This document shows, one piece after another, positions 51,452-62,178 of a stretch of DNA of 64,000 bases. Source of the stretch: Bdellovibrio reynosensis (GTDB lineage Bacteria > Bdellovibrionota > Bdellovibrionia > Bdellovibrionales > Bdellovibrionaceae); NCBI RefSeq assembly GCF_022814725.1, contig NZ_CP093442.1, positions 1,116,001-1,180,000 on the forward strand. Reading direction: 5' to 3'. Below the pieces are notes generated by a model. The model ran no database searches. It saw only the letters and a list, made by a program, of their open reading frames with translations, and was not told the origin of the DNA. A program made the position numbers and the translations under genes. Every line of letters begins with the position of its first letter. Position 1 is the stretch's first letter.

Positions 51452-52858
51452 CTACTCATCATCTAATTCATCATCACCGACAACGCCGAGGTTGTATTTT
51501 TCTATGCGATATCGCATAGATCGGAAAGAGATATGAAGCAACTTCGCAGCTCTTTTCTTTACTCCGCCGGCTGAATGAATCGCTTTGATTAGCAATTCTT
51601 TTTCGATCTGTCCCATGACTTTATCTAAATCAACACCGTCATCGCCGATCTCGATTTCGTTTGATGAAGCCATTTTTCTGCCTGAAGAAGTGTTTACCAT
51701 TGGCGGTAAAGACTCTGGCAGAATTGTTGCGCCACCTTCAAGGGCCACGGTGCGTTCGATTAAGTTTTCAAGCTCACGCACGTTACCTGGGTAATCGTAT
51801 TTTTTTAAGATCTCCATAGCCTCAGCACTGATAGCACCGATGTTTTTATTCAGACGCTCATTGTACTTTTTAAGGAAGTGATTCGCTAATAACGGAATGT
51901 CGTCGCGACGCTCACGCAAGCCTGGAGTTTTAATATTGATTACGTTTAAGCGATAGAACAAATCTTGACGGAAACCGCCCTTTTGCACCATCTCTTCAAG
52001 ATTTCTATTTGTCGCCGCGATGATACGCACATCAACCTTATGGTCTTCCGTGGCACCGACTCTGCGGATCACGCGTTCTTGAATCGCGCGAAGTAATTTT
52101 ACCTGGATAGTTAAAGGCAACTCACCCACTTCATCTAGAAACAATGTTCCGCCGTCAGCCACTTCAAAAAGACCGGCTTTATCAGCAACGGCCCCCGTGA
52201 AGGAACCTTTTTTATGACCGAACATTTCTGATTCCATCAAGTTTTCAGGAATCGCACCGCAGTTCACGGTTACAAACGGACGATCTTTCAATGGACCGTT
52301 ATAGTGAATCGCTTTTGCAACAACCTCTTTACCCGTACCAGATTCCCCAGTGATAAGAACGTTTGTCGGAGTTTGCGAAACGCGTTTCACCATATCAAAA
52401 ATAGTGTGCATCGCCTGCGAATTACCGATCATGTTTTGGAATGAATATTCCTTAACAAGTTCTTTTTTAAGAGATCTATTTTCAACTTCTAAGTTGCGGG
52501 AACGAAGAGCATTTTGAATGTTCAAACGAACTTCATCGATTTTAAATGGCTTCGTCAAATAGTCATAGGCACCCATCTTCATCGCTTCTACAGCGGTTTC
52601 CGTGGTACCAAATGCAGTAATAAGCATGAATACGATATCTGGGTAAGATTCTTTGACGTGCTTTAAAAGCTCAATACCAGTCACATGGGGCATCTGAAGA
52701 TCAGAGATAATCATGTCGAATGATTTCTTAGCTAGAAGATCTTTAGCCTTTTGACCGTCTTCGGCCAAAGTAATCTCGTAACCTTCTTTCTTCAACATAA
52801 TCTCTAAAAACTCGCGAATTGATTCTTCGTCATCGACAACAAGAATTCTCGACTTCAT
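51452..52858 (-). CDS. pilR: PilR-like sigma-54 response regulator
   Basis: A 468-residue regulator with an N-terminal receiver (phospho-Asp53 in MIISDLQMP, after VVDDEE) and an AAA+ domain. Walker A is GESGTGKE and the sigma-54 loop GSFTGA has Ser in place of the usual Ala. A Fis-like HTH at the end reads RAAKLLHISFRSMRYRIEK. Its place behind pilB-pilC and a kinase gene points to PilR, which activates pilA from a sigma-54 promoter. The gap to the kinase gene is 35 bases. Confidence 0.85.
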   Translation of the reverse strand: MKSRILVVDDEESIREFLEIMLKKEGYEITLAEDGQKAKDLLAKKSFDMIISDLQMPHVTGIELLKHVKESYPDIVFMLITAFGTTETAVEAMKMGAYDYLTKPFKIDEVRLNIQNALRSRNLEVENRSLKKELVKEYSFQNMIGNSQAMHTIFDMVKRVSQTPTNVLITGESGTGKEVVAKAIHYNGPLKDRPFVTVNCGAIPENLMESEMFGHKKGSFTGAVADKAGLFEVADGGTLFLDEVGELPLTIQVKLLRAIQERVIRRVGATEDHKVDVRIIAATNRNLEEMVQKGGFRQDLFYRLNVINIKTPGLRERRDDIPLLANHFLKKYNERLNKNIGAISAEAMEILKKYDYPGNVRELENLIERTVALEGGATILPESLPPMVNTSSGRKMASSNEIEIGDDGVDLDKVMGQIEKELLIKAIHSAGGVKKRAAKLLHISFRSMRYRIEKYNLGVVGDDELDDE

Positions 52859-52893: not shown

Positions 52894-54462
52894 TCAAGTT
52901 GCTCTTGGGAAAGTCAAAATAAACTCAGTGCCCACGCCTACTTCACTTTCGACAAAAACGCGCGCACCATGGCCTTCCAAAATCTTATGAGTCACAGCTA
53001 GACCAAGGCCTGTGCCCTTTGGCTTCGTTGTATGAAATGGTTCAAACATTTTTCTTTTGGTAGTTTCATTCATTCCACAACCCGCATCACGAATGCGAAT
53101 TTCAATCTCTTTTTCTGAAGTGACAGCTTTTACTGCCAACCGCGGCTTTGCGGCTTCATTCATGGCTTGATAGGAATTGATCACAATATTTAGAAAGGCT
53201 TGTTTCAGCTTGTCTCTGCGACCCAGAATTTTAAGACTGGATTCAAATTCACGCACCTGTTCGATATCTTTTCTCACCTGATTGTTAACGAGCATCGAAT
53301 CAAGTACTTCTGTTAACAGTGAACTTAGATCCACAGGATCCGTCGGAGGAGTTTCAGGACGCGCATAATCCAAGAATTCTGTGATCAAGTTATTTAAGCG
53401 ATCGATCTCTCGTAAAACGATCTTCATCAGTTTACGATCATCATCATTGTTCACAGTTTGCGAAAGCATCTCGATACTGCCGCTAATTCCCGCTAGCGGG
53501 TTGCGAATTTCGTGGGCAATACCCGCGGCAAGACCACCCACTGCCGCCAATTTTTCATGTTGGCGTGCCGCGAATTCTAATTGGCGAATGCGGGTAAGAT
53601 CTTCAAATAAAGCAATGTAAAGTTGCTCTTGAAATTCAGGACTATAAATCTTTGAAACTGTCACGCCCAGAATCTTTTCAGCGCCATCGGCAGATACTTT
53701 TACATCCCCTTTGGTCAATTTCTGATCACCACTGACGTTAAACACTTTCAAAGGCTCAAAGTTTGAAAAATCATGCTGCGCTAAAATATCAGAAGCTGCC
53801 GCATTAGCACGAATGACTTCGCCCGCTTCAGTGAAAGACATCATTCCTGAAGGAATGTTTTCAACTAAAATATTGTTAAGCTCTTGCGCGGAACGAAGAC
53901 TAAGACCAGTTTTCTTAAGCTCGCTGCCCACCGTCTGTAACTGCTCGCTAAGATAACCAGCAAGCCCGGCGACAGAAAAGAAAGCGACGTTGTTTAAAGC
54001 TAAAAGGAAAAAGAAATTCAGCGCCTTCATTTCAGGTGAAAACAAAGCTGCCCCAGAAAAGAAAATGCTTGTGAAAAAGGCCACCGTCACTGCACCCACA
54101 CTGCGACAAGCGATGCCCGCCAGAAGAATGTTCACAAGGTGTAAGAACATAAAAAGGGATTGGTTAATCCCTGAATAATAAATCAATAACGAGATAAATA
54201 ATGAATCTAGAACGAAGCCCGATAACAACAAGGTGGGATGTTCTAAAACTTGTTCCCACTTTGTGAACCAAAATAAATGAAACGTAAAAGCTATTGTTAA
54301 AATCGTATAAAAAGGCCCTAGGATAGACCAATTTACGAAACCTTCTTGGGCGACACTTGATACGACACTGATAAGAAGAACTAAAACAAAAAGACTGAGG
54401 CGGACAAATTCCACCAACAGTCCATTTTGTCTATTATTCTGCAAAGCAAAGCTTAAGCGCAT
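52894..54462 (-). CDS. pilS: PilS-like membrane sensor histidine kinase
   Basis: The 522-residue kinase has about six transmembrane helices (residues 18-175), a PAS-like cytosolic domain (about 200-290) and the H-box AAGIAHEIRNPLAGI with His317. The ATPase domain has the G-box GKGLGLAV near the end. The six-span input is typical of PilS, which senses pilin in the membrane. It begins 1 base after pilC. Together with the response regulator it forms the pilus two-component pair. Confidence 0.87.
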   Translation of the reverse strand: MRLSFALQNNRQNGLLVEFVRLSLFVLVLLISVVSSVAQEGFVNWSILGPFYTILTIAFTFHLFWFTKWEQVLEHPTLLLSGFVLDSLFISLLIYYSGINQSLFMFLHLVNILLAGIACRSVGAVTVAFFTSIFFSGAALFSPEMKALNFFFLLALNNVAFFSVAGLAGYLSEQLQTVGSELKKTGLSLRSAQELNNILVENIPSGMMSFTEAGEVIRANAAASDILAQHDFSNFEPLKVFNVSGDQKLTKGDVKVSADGAEKILGVTVSKIYSPEFQEQLYIALFEDLTRIRQLEFAARQHEKLAAVGGLAAGIAHEIRNPLAGISGSIEMLSQTVNNDDDRKLMKIVLREIDRLNNLITEFLDYARPETPPTDPVDLSSLLTEVLDSMLVNNQVRKDIEQVREFESSLKILGRRDKLKQAFLNIVINSYQAMNEAAKPRLAVKAVTSEKEIEIRIRDAGCGMNETTKRKMFEPFHTTKPKGTGLGLAVTHKILEGHGARVFVESEVGVGTEFILTFPRAT

Positions 54463-55680
54463 CTATTGAACCACGTCCGCCATGCTGAAGATTGGTAAGT
54501 ACATTGCAATTACTAGGACGGCGATGATACCGCCTAGGACCACCATTAATAGTGGCTCTAACAGCGATGTCATGGCCTTCACCGCTGTTTCAACTTCATC
54601 TTCATAGAAGTCTGCGATCTTACCCAACATGATATCTAAAGTACCGGATTGTTCCCCGATAGAAATCATCTGCACGACCATGTCTGGAAAAGCTTTTTCT
54701 TTACCCAAAGGTGCCGCGAATGTACGACCTTGAGTTACTGATTCCTTGGAACGAAGCAACGCCTGCTCGATCACGATATTGCCTGCTGTTTTAGATGAAA
54801 TCTCAATGGCATCAATCAAACCCACACCTGAACCCAATAGGGTTGATAGAGTTCTTGTCAACCTAGCGATAGCTGATTTCTGGACAACTTCACCAAACAC
54901 CGGCGCACGCATAATAAAACGATCAAAGGAATCTTTTCCCGATTCAGTATTCAGCCATTGTTTGAAGGCGATGGGCCCAAGAACCGCAGCCCCGACATAT
55001 AAATACCAATTCGCAATCATGGAATTACTTAAAGCTACAACCGCCGCTGTTAAAGCAGGTGGTTCTTTACCTGATGACGAAAAAAATTCCATGAACTTAG
55101 GAATAATGAAAACCAAGATACCGGCAATAACGATCAAAGCAACAATGATGATAACGACGGGATAAACCAACGCACCCTTCACTTGGGCTTTTAGTTTTTC
55201 AGATTTTTCCATGTAACTTGCAAGACGTTGCAAGATTCCATCTAAGATACCGGCTTCCTCACCGGCTTGAATCATATTCACATAAAGTTTATCAAAAACG
55301 TTTGGCACCTGCGCCATTGAATCAGCCAGACGACGTCCACCTTCAATAGAAGTTTTAACCTGCGCTGATGCTTCTTTTAATAAGCCTGGGCGTAAACCTT
55401 CAGAAAGAATTTTTAATGAATCCACAACCGGAATACCGGCGTTGATCAAAGTCGCAAACTGACGAGTGAAAACCTGTAAGTCCTTGCCCTTCACTCGCGG
55501 CGCAAAAAGACTGGCGCTTTTACCTGCCGCTGCTCGCGAAGACCCAAATTGAACCACACGAACTGGCAATAACTGCTGAGCACGCAAGCGGATGATAGCT
55601 TCTTGCTGATTTGCAGCTTCAATTTCCCCTTGCACCATTTGGCCGGTGGAATTTTTGGCCTGATACTGGAACTTTGCCAT
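54463..55680 (-). CDS. pilC: Type IV pilus inner-membrane platform protein PilC
   Basis: A 405-residue GspF/PilC-type protein with two T2SSF domains (about 70-195 and 270-395). Each has its family segment (ITRQFATLINAGIPVVDSL-like and LTRTLSTLLGSGVGLIDAI). Transmembrane helices lie near 170-190, 220-240 and 380-400. The Ile/Val-rich end fits the third helix. It anchors the pilus motor in the inner membrane. It follows the degenerate PilT gene by 1 base. Confidence 0.95.
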   Translation of the reverse strand: MAKFQYQAKNSTGQMVQGEIEAANQQEAIIRLRAQQLLPVRVVQFGSSRAAAGKSASLFAPRVKGKDLQVFTRQFATLINAGIPVVDSLKILSEGLRPGLLKEASAQVKTSIEGGRRLADSMAQVPNVFDKLYVNMIQAGEEAGILDGILQRLASYMEKSEKLKAQVKGALVYPVVIIIVALIVIAGILVFIIPKFMEFFSSSGKEPPALTAAVVALSNSMIANWYLYVGAAVLGPIAFKQWLNTESGKDSFDRFIMRAPVFGEVVQKSAIARLTRTLSTLLGSGVGLIDAIEISSKTAGNIVIEQALLRSKESVTQGRTFAAPLGKEKAFPDMVVQMISIGEQSGTLDIMLGKIADFYEDEVETAVKAMTSLLEPLLMVVLGGIIAVLVIAMYLPIFSMADVVQ

Positions 55681-55681
55681 C

Positions 55682-56725
55682 TTAGATACCTACCTTCTTA
55701 AGAAGCTGATCAAGAGAATCTGGATCCCGAGAAACCTCAAAAGCGGTTTTCAGATCTACGCGACGTCGAATCAAATGCTGTAACAAAGATTGATTAAGTG
55801 TCAAAATTCCTGAATTTTCCAAAGAGCCCGTTAATAAGACATCGATGTTTTTAATATCTTCTTGTTCTATTAACTGACGAACTTGGGGTTTCATCAGCAA
55901 GACTTCGTGGGCAAAGATTTTTTCCCCCGCAAGGCTCGCGACCGGATATTGACCAGCAGCCAGACTTAGAACTTCAGCAAAGCGAGCAGCTCCATGCTCA
56001 GCGTAACGCTCGCTTAAAACCGACATGCAACGTCTTAAAGCATTCGTCACTGACGGCGCTTTCATAGAATAAATAACAAATAAACCTCTTTCTGCTAAAG
56101 CCATCGCTTCACAGAAAGACTGTTCATCAGAAAATCCATCAAATACGACCATGTCTACGCCGGCCATCAGGTTTTCCTGATCTTCAGCTCTGGCAAATTC
56201 ATGGTTGTGATACAAATAAACAGCTTTAGATTCTTTGACTTGCGGGAACGCTTTGCGGGAATAAACGACACCGACAAAGGATTTTTCTTCACTCATTTTC
56301 TGAAGAATTCGGTGTAAGGCCCATACCTGTCCTGCTTCGCCAGGACCTGAAAGCAAAACCAAACCTTTCATGCGTAAGCATGTTTCTAAAAGTGATGGCG
56401 GAAGTTGCACTTCCTGTTTGCCACCATCAAGGTTCATATCAAGTACAGCTTTCATGGTGCTGTCTTGTTGAAAGAATGAAAAACCGATGCGCACGCTTTC
56501 AAAGGATGCTTCACCACTGACCACACCCCGCGCATCTAACTGCGTTTTTTGTTGGGTGCTTAATAAACTTTGTTGCAACAGGTTCCATTCAGTCATCAGT
56601 GCTGGCGACTCTCGCAAGCTTGTCCATCCCGAAGGAAGACGAATGCGTGGCTCACTGCCGACGACGAATAAAAATTCTTCTGCTTTTTTTGCTTTCGCGC
56701 TTAAAAGAAGTTCCGTCAAACTCAT
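55682..56725 (-). CDS. Degenerate PilT-like protein (predicted inactive motor paralogue)
   Basis: The 347-residue protein has the length and position of PilT, and its C-terminal part (ALRRCMSVLSERYAEHGAARFAEVL) fits the PilT fold. All ATPase motifs have gone. Walker A reads GPGEAGQV (127-134) instead of GPTGSGKS/T. Walker B/Asp box reads MVVFDGFSD instead of VGExRD, and the His box is IYSMKAPS instead of TLHTN. It cannot hydrolyse ATP as PilT does. The reading frame is intact, so it is probably a regulatory or structural subunit. It overlaps pilB by one base and precedes pilC by 1 base. Confidence 0.8.
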   Translation of the reverse strand: MSLTELLLSAKAKKAEEFLFVVGSEPRIRLPSGWTSLRESPALMTEWNLLQQSLLSTQQKTQLDARGVVSGEASFESVRIGFSFFQQDSTMKAVLDMNLDGGKQEVQLPPSLLETCLRMKGLVLLSGPGEAGQVWALHRILQKMSEEKSFVGVVYSRKAFPQVKESKAVYLYHNHEFARAEDQENLMAGVDMVVFDGFSDEQSFCEAMALAERGLFVIYSMKAPSVTNALRRCMSVLSERYAEHGAARFAEVLSLAAGQYPVASLAGEKIFAHEVLLMKPQVRQLIEQEDIKNIDVLLTGSLENSGILTLNQSLLQHLIRRRVDLKTAFEVSRDPDSLDQLLKKVGI

Positions 56726-58425
56726 TATGTGTCCTTCACTGATGCATTGAGTACTTCTTCAATTGTGGTGATACCACGCTTTAATTTCAACAAAGCACTT
56801 CGGCGCAGGGTTCTCATCCCCTGTTCCCGGGCAAGATAACGAAGCTGTCCTGTGGAAGCTCCCTTTAAAATCGCCTCTTTCATTTTCTCGCTCATGTACA
56901 TAAGCTCGTAAATCGCAGCACGGCCTTTGATGCCTGTATTGTTGCAGTTAGCACACCCCTTACCATGACAGACCTTGTAGTCCGGCACTTCATTCGGCGG
57001 CACACCCAAATTCAACAAAGTTTGCGGGGGAACTTCGATCTGTGCTTTACATGATTCACAGATTTTACCCACAAGACGCTGGGCTACGATAAGATTCACA
57101 GTCGAAGTAATAATATACGGAGCAACACCCATCTCTGTTAAACGAATCACGGTCGACGGCGCATCGTTGGTATGCAAAGTACTAACAACCAAGTGACCTG
57201 TCGACGCGGCTTTAAATGCAATCTCTGCAGTTTCATAGTCACGAATCTCTCCCACCATGACCACATCCGGGTCCTGACGAAGGAAAGATTTCAGGGCACT
57301 TGCGAAGGTCAAATCAATATCAGGATTCATCTGCACCTGATTAATACCTTCTAAGTTGAACTCTACCGGATCTTCTGCTGTCGAAATATTCGTGTCGGGT
57401 TGATTTAGTTCGGCCAAAGCAGAATAAATCGTCGTCGTTTTACCAGATCCCGTTGGACCGGTAATAAGCACCATGCCTTGGGGCAGATTGATATTGGATT
57501 TAAATAATTTTAAGTCGTCTTCTTCAAAACCAAGCTTCGTCATATCTAACTGAAGATTGGATTTATCTAATAGACGAAGAACAACTTTTTCGCCCCATAA
57601 AGTTGGCAGAACGCTGACACGAAAATCCATTTCCTTCCCTTTGGAAGTACGAACTTTCAAACGACCATCTTGGGGACGGCGTTTTTCCGCGATATCAAGC
57701 TTAGACATGATTTTAATACGTGAAGCAATGGCGGCACCCGTTCCTGCCGGAGGAGCTGTTGCTTCTTGCAAGTTACCATCCAGGCGGAACCGCACGCGGT
57801 ATCTTTTTTCATAGGGCTCAAAGTGGATATCGGATACTTTTTTTCGAATGGCATCTGTTAAAATCGAATTCACGAATTTTACGATGGGCGCATCATCCAT
57901 CACGCCATCTTGGTCAATGACTTCTGCTGATGGAGTACCGACACTGAATTCTTCGTCAGCATCCGCACTCATGCTATTTAAACTTTTCGTACTGATGCTT
58001 CCGCCATAGTATTTTTCAATACCCGAAACGATGGCACTTTCAGTCCCGACGACCGCCTGTATACGACAGCGCGTGATGAAGCGTAAGTCTTCTTTAACAA
58101 TGATGTTACTAGGATCAGCAAAGGCCACTACCAAAGTAGTTCCGGCTTTTTGCAAAGGTATTAAAGTGTTCTTTTCACACACATCTTTTGGAATAAGAGA
58201 GATAACACTTTGATCGATTTCAAAGGTATTAACTTCCACCCCCGGAACCGCAAAATGTTTTTCAAGTGCGCGAAGTATTTGAGTATCTTTAAGAAAACCC
58301 AATTGAATGATTGACGACGTCAGCTTCTGACCCGTCTTTTTTTGTTCTTCAACAGCCAAAGATAACTGATCAGGTTTTAGCAAACCCTGCTTAACTAAGA
58401 TTTCACCTATTTTGAGTGAAGACAT
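56725..58425 (-). CDS. pilB: Type IV pilus extension ATPase PilB
   Basis: The 566-residue extension motor has the N-terminal MshEN/T2SSE-N domain. Walker A is GPTGSGKTTT (about 320-330), then TAEDPVEFN, the Asp box GEIRDYETAEI and the His box STLHTNDA. A zinc site CESCKAQ...CHGKGCANC lies near 460-495. All elements are intact. It starts the pilB-pilT-like-pilC-pilS-pilR unit, 47 bases after the AroE-like gene; the ATG follows GGGAG. Confidence 0.96.
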   Translation of the reverse strand: MSSLKIGEILVKQGLLKPDQLSLAVEEQKKTGQKLTSSIIQLGFLKDTQILRALEKHFAVPGVEVNTFEIDQSVISLIPKDVCEKNTLIPLQKAGTTLVVAFADPSNIIVKEDLRFITRCRIQAVVGTESAIVSGIEKYYGGSISTKSLNSMSADADEEFSVGTPSAEVIDQDGVMDDAPIVKFVNSILTDAIRKKVSDIHFEPYEKRYRVRFRLDGNLQEATAPPAGTGAAIASRIKIMSKLDIAEKRRPQDGRLKVRTSKGKEMDFRVSVLPTLWGEKVVLRLLDKSNLQLDMTKLGFEEDDLKLFKSNINLPQGMVLITGPTGSGKTTTIYSALAELNQPDTNISTAEDPVEFNLEGINQVQMNPDIDLTFASALKSFLRQDPDVVMVGEIRDYETAEIAFKAASTGHLVVSTLHTNDAPSTVIRLTEMGVAPYIITSTVNLIVAQRLVGKICESCKAQIEVPPQTLLNLGVPPNEVPDYKVCHGKGCANCNNTGIKGRAAIYELMYMSEKMKEAILKGASTGQLRYLAREQGMRTLRRSALLKLKRGITTIEEVLNASVKDT

Positions 58426-58472: not shown

Positions 58473-59306
58473 CTAGACCGAAGAAGAGTTTTCTTTCAAA
58501 AACTGCATCCAACTTTCACGAAGATCTTCCACGGATAAGTAACTTCCGACTTCCAAGCGTTCTAACCACAACTTTGCCACCTGGGCATACAAAGCTTGCG
58601 GAATGAGAGTTTTAAGTTCAGCTTTGGTTGCTTCAAGCAAAAGTGGATTTTGCACCGGCAATAAATTGAAATCCAAAACATAGCCATCGTTACGCATAAA
58701 ATTGAAATAAGTCAGGTCGCGCATCAGTTCTTCGTTATCAGAAAGATCTACAGTGTTGATAATGATCCCAGCACTGATTGCTTGCACCGTTAGATCTTCA
58801 GGCACCACTGAATGAATTTTAATTCCTAATAAGGCGCGCATTAAACCCGCACGCAGCTCTTGCCCTTCGTCGCTTTCACCTACCAGATAAATTTCGGAAA
58901 CACCGACTTCCGCTAAGACATTGGCCGCGACGCGCGCAAGCTCCCCCGTACCGACGACAAAACCGGGGGCGCGATTATTCAGATCCCGAGCCTCTTGAAC
59001 CAAGATCAAGCGCAAAGATTCAGCAATCAGTAAGCGCGGGTACCACGTATTTTCCTCTTTAAAAAAAGAATCCACACAAAGGGAACTGCGCGATTCCGTA
59101 GAATGCATTTTTAACTGCGGCAGAATTTCTTTAGATAATCTTGTATCAACGTAGGCAGCTGACGCCCCTTGCAAAGCATCGAGCGAAAAATCAGTTAAAG
59201 TTTCAAACTGCCAGTCCCAGTTTTGTTCCCGGGCTAGGAATTGCAAAAAACCCACAAACAGGCCTGGCTCAGAGGAAGTAAACTCAACGATTTTGTGGTT
59301 TTTCAT
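58473..59306 (-). CDS. Shikimate-dehydrogenase-like protein, catalytic site not recognised
   Basis: A 277-residue protein whose C-terminal half looks like the NADP-binding Rossmann part of AroE: GTGELARVAANVLAEVG (119-135), then GIIINTVDL and the FNLLPVQNPLLLEA segment where AroE has VYNPxxTPLL. The N-terminal half lacks the shikimate-binding SxS, Lys-Asn-Asp pattern I would expect. It may be a redox-cofactor binder without shikimate activity. It overlaps ribF by 23 bases and precedes pilB. Confidence 0.55.
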   Translation of the reverse strand: MKNHKIVEFTSSEPGLFVGFLQFLAREQNWDWQFETLTDFSLDALQGASAAYVDTRLSKEILPQLKMHSTESRSSLCVDSFFKEENTWYPRLLIAESLRLILVQEARDLNNRAPGFVVGTGELARVAANVLAEVGVSEIYLVGESDEGQELRAGLMRALLGIKIHSVVPEDLTVQAISAGIIINTVDLSDNEELMRDLTYFNFMRNDGYVLDFNLLPVQNPLLLEATKAELKTLIPQALYAQVAKLWLERLEVGSYLSVEDLRESWMQFLKENSSSV

Positions 59307-60240: not shown

Positions 60241-60303
60241 TATACCTAATTCTTCGCGCCACCGTAAGTGCTTTTAATAGTTGATATTTTTAATAAATTT
60301 GCT

Positions 60304-62178
60304 ATGTTGCAACGCGTGCAAAAAGCCTCTTTTCAACACCTTAAACTGCGCCTTGAAGTCCTGCTTCGATTCTTTTCCCGACGCCGGGGATTTTGGCTTC
60401 GTTGTTTATTGTGTTGGGGGATTGGTTGTCTTGCCCTTTCCAACGATGAAATCAATGCCTATGACCAGCGCTTTCACCTGCGCGGGGACCAAAAGGCTTC
60501 TTCACAAATCGTTTTAGTGACCATTCGCCAAAGCGACTTTGCGACGATCTATGATACGCGCACAAACTTTTTAGATAACATGAGTGAGGTCACAGACATC
60601 ACCGATAGTTATTTTTGGAACAAGCGCATTTGGTCTGAGTTGCTTATTAGAATTTTACGACAAAATCCAAAAGCCGTCGGTGTGACACTTTATTTTGGCG
60701 ATAATATCGGCAAAGTAGCCCTGACCCAAGAAGAGCAAAAACTTTTCTATGACATGCGAGTCTTTTGGTCCGCGACCACAAATAACTTAGATCGAGTTTT
60801 GAATCCGGCCTTCACAAGTCGCGACCTTAACAACATCGGAAGCAATGAAGTGCGCCGTGATGAAGATGGCGTTGTTCGCAGAGTCTTTCCCCAAAGAGCC
60901 GAGCTTCCGCACCTTGTAGAGAAAATCACGGGTAAGAAGTTTCCGACGACCCAAGCAGGTCTTCCGATAAACTTCCGCGGCTCTAACAAGGTATTCACAC
61001 AATATTCATTCAGCGAAATTATGTACGACGAAGTGCCGTTTGATGCCTTTACCAATAAAATCATTCTGATCGGTGCAGAGACTTCTTCAGGCCCGGTTTA
61101 CATCACCCCGATGGGAACTATTTCGCGCACTGAAATCTTAGCCCATACAACCGACACTGTTTTAGGCAATAAGTGGATCCAGCGGCTTTCAAACAGCTGG
61201 TATGCGGCTGGATTTTTTGTTTTGATGTTGATTGCGGTTTTCCTAATCACGACCTACCCGCAGTCGGTGGCGCTCTTCTTTATTTTGTGGATCGGAACGT
61301 TGCTAGCCGCCTTATCGGCATGGGTGTTTGATACTTTTTACTTCTGGTCCCCGGCATTTTCACCTTTTGTGCTTTTAGGTGCGTCGTGGATTATCTTTAT
61401 CGGCTACCAAGCAAGCAAAGTCGAAAGAAAGAACTTCCGTTTACAGCAAGAACAGCAGTACTTGCAGGAACTTGAACAGCTTAAAAATAATTTCGTAAGT
61501 TTGATTTCCCATGACTTAAAAACGCCTATTGCAAAGATCCAAGCCATCGTAGATCGATTGTTGGTTGAACATCAAAGCAAAGATGAAAGCTTAAGCCAAG
61601 ACTTGCAGTCCTTGCGTTTATTCGGCGACGAACTGAATCGCTACATTCAGTCGATTCTTAAAGTTCTACGTGTTGAATCCCGTGACTTTAAGATCAATAC
61701 CGAGGTGGGTGATATTAACGAAGTTGTTGAAGAAGCTTTGCAACAGCTTCGCCCCTTGGCCCGAGAAAAACACATCACTATTAATACCAGTTTAGAGCCG
61801 ATGTTTTCTTTAGAATTTGACACCACCTTGATCAAAGAGGTGGTTATCAATCTGGTTGAAAATGCAATTAAGTACACGCCCCACGGTGGAAGCATTGAAG
61901 TGATCTCGCAAGAAGAAGATGATTTAGTCCATGTGATCGTAAAAGATACCGGTGAAGGCATTAAGCCTGAAGACATGGAAAAGGTTTGGGGGAAATTCAC
62001 CCGTGGTAGTGATCAAGATATGAAAACCAAGGGAACTGGTTTAGGTCTTTATTTAGTAAAATATTTTATTGAACTGCATGGCGGTAAAGTAAAAATGGAA
62101 AGTGTTGTCGGCACTGGCACCACAGTTTCATTTACACTGCCACTGGATACAGAAAGTGAATCAGAGGTGTTAGCATGA
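60304..62178 (+). CDS. CHASE2-domain sensor histidine kinase
   Basis: A 624-residue membrane kinase from the ATG at 60304; a GTG at 60268 adds 12 residues. One helix near 30-50 anchors a CHASE2 extracytoplasmic domain (about 55-285, IVLVTIRQSDFA to IILIGAETSSGPVYITP). Three helices follow, then the histidine kinase core with H-box LISHDLKTPIAKIQ (His403). The ATPase domain has the N-box and GTGLGLYLVKYF. There is no PAS. The stop overlaps the response regulator start by 4 bases, so they are a pair. The signal sensed is unknown. Confidence 0.9.
   Translation: MLQRVQKASFQHLKLRLEVLLRFFSRRRGFWLRCLLCWGIGCLALSNDEINAYDQRFHLRGDQKASSQIVLVTIRQSDFATIYDTRTNFLDNMSEVTDITDSYFWNKRIWSELLIRILRQNPKAVGVTLYFGDNIGKVALTQEEQKLFYDMRVFWSATTNNLDRVLNPAFTSRDLNNIGSNEVRRDEDGVVRRVFPQRAELPHLVEKITGKKFPTTQAGLPINFRGSNKVFTQYSFSEIMYDEVPFDAFTNKIILIGAETSSGPVYITPMGTISRTEILAHTTDTVLGNKWIQRLSNSWYAAGFFVLMLIAVFLITTYPQSVALFFILWIGTLLAALSAWVFDTFYFWSPAFSPFVLLGASWIIFIGYQASKVERKNFRLQQEQQYLQELEQLKNNFVSLISHDLKTPIAKIQAIVDRLLVEHQSKDESLSQDLQSLRLFGDELNRYIQSILKVLRVESRDFKINTEVGDINEVVEEALQQLRPLAREKHITINTSLEPMFSLEFDTTLIKEVVINLVENAIKYTPHGGSIEVISQEEDDLVHVIVKDTGEGIKPEDMEKVWGKFTRGSDQDMKTKGTGLGLYLVKYFIELHGGKVKMESVVGTGTTVSFTLPLDTESESEVLA

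Follow-up and report, generated by a model that had tools for sequence, protein, structure and literature searches.

The gene between pilB and pilC in Bdellovibrio reynosensis, pilT1 (55682..56725, minus strand, in the 64,000-nucleotide stretch analyzed here, hereafter the window), almost certainly encodes a selected, functional pseudo-ATPase of the PilT lineage. Across the order an intact PilT is the usual occupant of this operon slot, and conversion to a pseudo-ATPase took place there at least four times. The best explanation overall, which we rate at about an even chance, is that an ancestral operonic PilT was turned into a non-enzymatic subunit that brakes the base of the pilus; the braking function taken by itself is a more tentative proposal.

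The pilT1 frame is single and open, begins with ATG and spans 347 codons encoding 347 residues. By orthology and by its pilB-pilT-pilC position it is the operonic PilT. As the initial annotation reported, its start codon overlaps the pilB stop by one base (TAATG), and a single base separates its stop from the pilC start (TAA-G-ATG). All of the following genes are on the minus strand. On one side lies pilB (56725..58425), encoding the intact extension ATPase (T2SSE and MshEN domains in Pfam), and on the other pilC (54463..55680), encoding the platform protein (T2SSF), followed by pilS (52894..54462; sensor kinase) and pilR (51452..52858; sigma-54 response regulator).

Two further genes lie upstream. 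A CHASE2-domain sensor histidine kinase (60268-62178, plus strand) diverges from the ribF-pil operon, and a 277-residue ORF (58473-59306, minus strand) sits between ribF and pilB. The latter has no match in Pfam and only a weak match to the Rossmann region of shikimate dehydrogenase (E 4e-6, far under the cut-off); many genomes of the order have an ORF of similar size upstream of pilB. Judging by sequence, it is possibly a second degenerate enzyme (a pseudo-AroE) of the same operon. In the B. reynosensis genome no aroE match exceeds the TIGR00507 cut-off. The sole match (45 bits, profile positions 2-128) is at G000:C1:2911820-2912188, inside a 618-residue frame that perhaps encodes a fused enzyme.

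The PilT1 protein matches no Pfam family at E≤1, T2SSE included. The pilT_fam profile (TIGR01420) scores 70.9 bits (E 1e-19) over residues 3-336, far under its curated cut-off of 319.1 bits, and PilT from A. aeolicus (2gsz) matches over its full length at 3e-17, with solved PilTs scoring about 1e-17. An AlphaFold model built on a 14-sequence alignment (pLDDT 83.7) has the PilT arrangement of an N2D and a CTD, and its best PDB matches are chains of Geobacter PilT4 (6ojx), with TM-scores reaching 0.84 and a sequence identity of about 22%. Given the full-length profile and PilT matches, and the PilT4 structures as best matches to the model, the window ORF descends from PilT and is predicted to fold like one; a structure unlike PilT, which would have spoken against the initial annotation, was not the outcome. 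PilT1 thus shares full-length homology, predicted domain organization and operon slot with PilT, but lacks the Walker A lysine, the Asp box, the catalytic glutamate, the His box, the N-domain arginines and the AIRNLIRE helix.

These losses were mapped against residues conserved in at least 90% of 32 motif-intact operonic PilTs of the order. At the former Walker A (GPGEAGQV, residues 127-134; 56324..56347, minus strand, as for all features of pilT1), T129, G130 and K133 are replaced, the lysine by glutamine, leaving no GxxxxGK[ST] motif, and the lysine is absent in 19/19 genus members. YSRKAFPQ (residues 155-162; 56240..56263) aligns where EDP[IV]E should be, and the Asp-box residues E157-E161 are gone. 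In the Walker B region (VDMVVFDGFSD, residues 190-200; 56126..56158), G196, E197 and R199 are replaced, the catalytic E197 by glycine, while the hydrophobic strand and the acidic D191 and D200 are retained. The former His box (GLFVIYSMKAPS, residues 214-225; 56051..56086) has lost H215, H222, T223 and N224, and with them both histidines. The initial annotation was right that every ATPase motif is lost, but misplaced one of them: the MVVFDGFSD stretch that it took for the Asp-box region aligns with the Walker B strand and catalytic-glutamate region.

Two arginines of the N2D-like N-terminal domain (residues 1-100; 56426..56725) are also replaced (R81 by G, R96 by D). They are 15 residues apart, as are the PilB arginine fingers R271 and R286 (PMC5424180), to which their positions appear to correspond by alignment and spacing. 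The AIRNLIRE helix, reported to be important for PilT function (PMC4237445), has given way to PQVRQLIEQE (helix position at residues 280-290; 55856..55888), within the most variable segment of the protein (281-300). The degenerate state is common to all 19 genus members, which puts it far beyond chance and rules out sequencing error or artefact as its source. A PilU-like accessory motor is ruled out as well. PilU (PDB 9n32) is likewise a second PilT-like protein serving one pilus, with a similar predicted fold, but it is an ATPase that acts as a PilT-dependent accessory in retraction (PMC6821130, PMC6762196), whereas PilT1 has neither a functional Walker A nor the other motifs.

The gene is present in 57 of 61 genomes of the window's GTDB family, and it lies between pilB and pilC in each of the 54 in which both neighbors are on the contig. 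None of the family's genes has an intact His box. Many early-branching members retain GK[ST], two of which (G018 and G017) also keep the first glutamate of the Asp box; in Bdellovibrio and its sister clade the Walker A is lost too. Several genera have gone further and lost the N2D altogether, leaving CTD-only forms of 208-250 residues (L044, L045, L046, L049, L051 and L063) whose frames start at or beside the pilB stop. A model of one such form keeps the fold of the PilT C-domain, with a tail of low confidence. One genus of the family (g5; L131 and L132 in genomes G023 and G004) has no pilT1, and its pilB abuts pilC; two further, incomplete genomes were left unscored for gene absence. As g5 carries PilB, PilC and an intact PilT2, it amounts to a natural knockout, and because its pilB is followed directly by pilC, pilT1 is dispensable in at least one lineage.

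In other families, a motif-intact PilT fills the pilB-pilC slot in 31 sampled operons. Degenerate forms outside the window's family occur in G064, in G112 and in a clade of three genomes (G063, G089 and G105). The G064 form (L109, 4001-5068) reads GPTRSGRST and ENPVE, has Asp for the Walker B Glu and has lost the His box, but is otherwise nearly intact (276 bits to pilT_fam); on its sequence it looks to be a conversion at an early stage. On a PilB+PilC tree the histidine of the His box was lost in four separate events, with SH-like support of 0.94-1.0 at the key nodes, a count that is a minimum because operons were sampled mostly from high-scoring matches. The surviving forms make up an intermediate series, from an ATP site kept without the catalytic glutamate or histidine, to an ATP site lost, to an N-domain lost.

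The genuine PilT that the initial annotation presumed to lie elsewhere in the genome is PilT2, encoded at G000:C1:2601420 with GPTGSGKS, EDPIE, GELRD and TLH. PilT2 is intact in 31/31 scanned loci from 30 genomes (G064 contributing two), and some genomes whose operonic PilT is intact carry PilT2-like genes as well. The two proteins have diverged in opposite ways. In the former nucleotide core (residues 101-230), intact operonic PilTs have a mean pairwise identity of 0.63 and the degenerate ones of the window's family 0.23; the AIRNLIRE segment gives 0.62 and 0.15, whereas the tail (residues 301-341) gives 0.48 and 0.46. The independently converted proteins reach 0.36 in the tail compared with 0.12-0.24 elsewhere. 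PilT2 has the reverse pattern, with 0.57 in the core, 0.53 in the AIRNLIRE segment and 0.20 in the tail. Because the core of PilT1 has diverged and its tail has been kept, and PilT2 does the opposite, the jobs of PilT seem to have been divided, with the motor in PilT2 and the tail in PilT1.

Whether pilT1 is simply decaying, as the absence of every catalytic motif, of the N-domain in some genera and of the whole gene in g5 might suggest, can be judged from substitution rates. In the five closest pairs of genomes, dN/dS is 0.009-0.035 for pilT1, compared with 0.005-0.019 for pilC and 0.004-0.017 for pilB; 19/19 Bdellovibrio genomes have exactly 347 codons, and 120 of 347 residues are invariant across the genus. 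Thus catalytic loss is combined with purifying selection, with neither relaxed constraint nor a broken frame, and a pseudogene on its way out is refuted for Bdellovibrio by dN/dS and fixed length, leaving that reading with practically no probability. The same values, unlike those of a pseudogene, bear out the functional non-ATPase anticipated by the initial annotation. Entropy within the genus is lowest near the N terminus and in the last 47 residues, the latter forming the conserved C-terminal helical tail (residues 301-347; 55685..55825). Selection might instead act on the nucleic acid, with pilT1 serving as a spacer or translational coupler that coordinates expression of pilB and pilC and provides the ribosome-binding site of pilC. 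From pilB through pilT1 to pilC, start and stop codons do overlap or nearly touch, and the end of the tail, at the KKVG codons (55688-55699), overlaps the Shine-Dalgarno-like sequence of pilC, AAGAAGGTAGGT. In the last five codons pS is lowered (0.535 versus 0.76), consistent with this overlapping site, and since synonymous variation is reduced there, not too much should be read into the invariant KKVGI at the C terminus. A signal in the DNA alone is thus partly accepted for these five codons, but it is ruled out for residues 301-341, where pS is an ordinary 0.76 and pN is half that of residues 1-300, which places the constraint at the level of the protein. With protein-level constraint over the whole ORF and with g5 simply joining pilB to pilC, a purely nucleic-acid role is very improbable.

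The lack of an ATP site was already published in 2014, for B. bacteriovorus PilT1 (Bd1510). Chanyi and Koval placed the gene in the operon pilB-pilT1-pilC-pilS-pilR, stated with a citation of Mahmoud and Koval (2010) that it has no Walker A, and deleted it (PMC4237445). Because all four published pilT1 primers match a genus member (G037; L014, 1501-2541) exactly at this slot, the window gene is the Bd1510 orthologue; the G037 copy is 81% identical to it. The two are the same gene in the same slot, and both are missing the Walker A.

The published deletions separate the two proteins. Biofilm remaining after predation was 35.4% for wild type, 27.9% for ΔpilT1, 92.5% for ΔpilT2 and 50.2% for the double mutant, and prey were cleared in 18, 15, 30 and 24 h, respectively (PMC4237445). 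Predation by the ΔpilT1 strain therefore equalled or slightly exceeded that of wild type, whereas ΔpilT2 failed on biofilm. By electron microscopy, piliated cells fell from 22.3% to 8.2% in ΔpilT1, whereas immunofluorescence rose (PMC4237445). The effects are modest, twitching could not be demonstrated in the prey-independent strain used, and the authors favored PilU-like stability or protease control as explanations (PMC4237445). From the primers, the in-frame deletion is predicted to leave an 80-codon scar joining residues 1-46 to 316-347, which retains most of the conserved tail, so if this fragment is made the ΔpilT1 phenotype may not be null. At the junction the paper names SpeI, and the primers carry GCATGC (PMC4237445). 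A genome-wide transposon study has pilT (Bd3852, that is, pilT2) among its hits, and Bd1510 is absent from its main text.

How a PilT without ATPase activity could act is suggested by these phenotypes. PilT1 would be the order's ancestral operon-encoded PilT, with retraction having been taken over by the intact PilT2 encoded elsewhere. It would still dock on PilC and/or PilB, where the type IVa pilus machine has its cytoplasmic base, mainly via its C-terminal domain and tail. Being unable to turn PilC, it would brake or lock the motor site and keep hold of the pilus until displaced or overridden by PilT2. Since the double mutant is partly restored (from 92.5% to 50.2% biofilm left), much of the ΔpilT2 defect needs PilT1, and a brake is favored because the single mutants differ and deletion of pilT1 partly suppresses that of pilT2. 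That piliation falls when scored by electron microscopy and yet not by immunofluorescence would fit pili that are held less firmly in ΔpilT1. The partner, PilC or PilB, is putative, and the phenotype may stem from the tail-bearing fragment. The initial annotation suggested that PilT1 might block a retraction ring; a whole ring that blocks the site is unlikely as the function of PilT1 across the family, to judge from the several genera that have lost the N-domain making the ring contact.

Two other readings also place PilT1 at the pilus base. It could be a dead docking adapter, bound to PilC and bringing in PilT2 as the source of ATPase activity. A precedent is the V. cholerae PilT K136A mutant, also a PilT acting in the pilus machine without ATPase activity, which still supports PilT functions when PilU is active (PMC9815625). 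An intact PilT2 always accompanies the dead operonic PilT, and as PilT2 lacks the operonic tail it could need a tail-bearing partner. K136A, however, is an engineered point mutant, whereas PilT1 evolved naturally under selection, and its knockout has a phenotype unlike that of losing the active partner. An adapter predicts that ΔpilT1, ΔpilT2 and the double mutant are alike, whereas the published phenotypes differ, with the caveat that the scar keeps residues 316-347. PilT2-like genes also stand beside an intact operonic PilT in some genomes, and g5 has PilT2 without PilT1, so we consider an adapter unlikely. The next best reading after a brake, because the usual N2D-CTD ring is out of reach for the CTD-only forms, is that PilT1 acts on PilB, as the initial annotation also suggested, its CTD and tail binding this extension ATPase and tuning assembly or activity of the PilB ring, for example as an assembly factor or cap. 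Those forms fit binding to the N2D of another ATPase better than a ring of their own, linkage to pilB is strict in all scorable family operons, with start and stop codons overlapping, and ΔpilT1 alters piliation without the predation loss seen for pilT2. Linkage to pilC is equally strict, however, and g5 retains PilB and PilC without PilT1; a PilB-directed regulator is a minority possibility, one chance in a handful.

Our literature search on PilT pseudoenzymes and degenerate Walker motifs found nothing besides the Bdellovibrio paper. What we regard as new, as it was not found in the searchable literature, is the repeated conversion of operonic PilT to a pseudo-ATPase with the tail preserved. 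The selected, order-wide pattern, the CTD-only forms, the preserved tail and the content of the scar are absent from the Bd1510 paper, and the PilU-like role that it suggests belongs to an active ATPase, while PilT1 lacks the motifs (PMC4237445).

These results account for the pilT annotation of a gene that cannot encode a retraction motor. Bdellovibrio needs type IV pili to prey, and the finding bears on how the extension and retraction motors swap on PilC. A natural PilT without ATPase activity, together with its intermediates, points to the tail as the part of PilT that is useful without ATP. More speculatively, PilT may have a second, ATP-independent job that resides in the tail, and within the order the two jobs may have been split repeatedly, with PilT2 as the motor and the operon copy as a dedicated ATP-free brake or regulator of the pilus base. 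If this is true, PilT1 would represent a pseudo-motor of type IV pili that has evolved repeatedly and is under selection.
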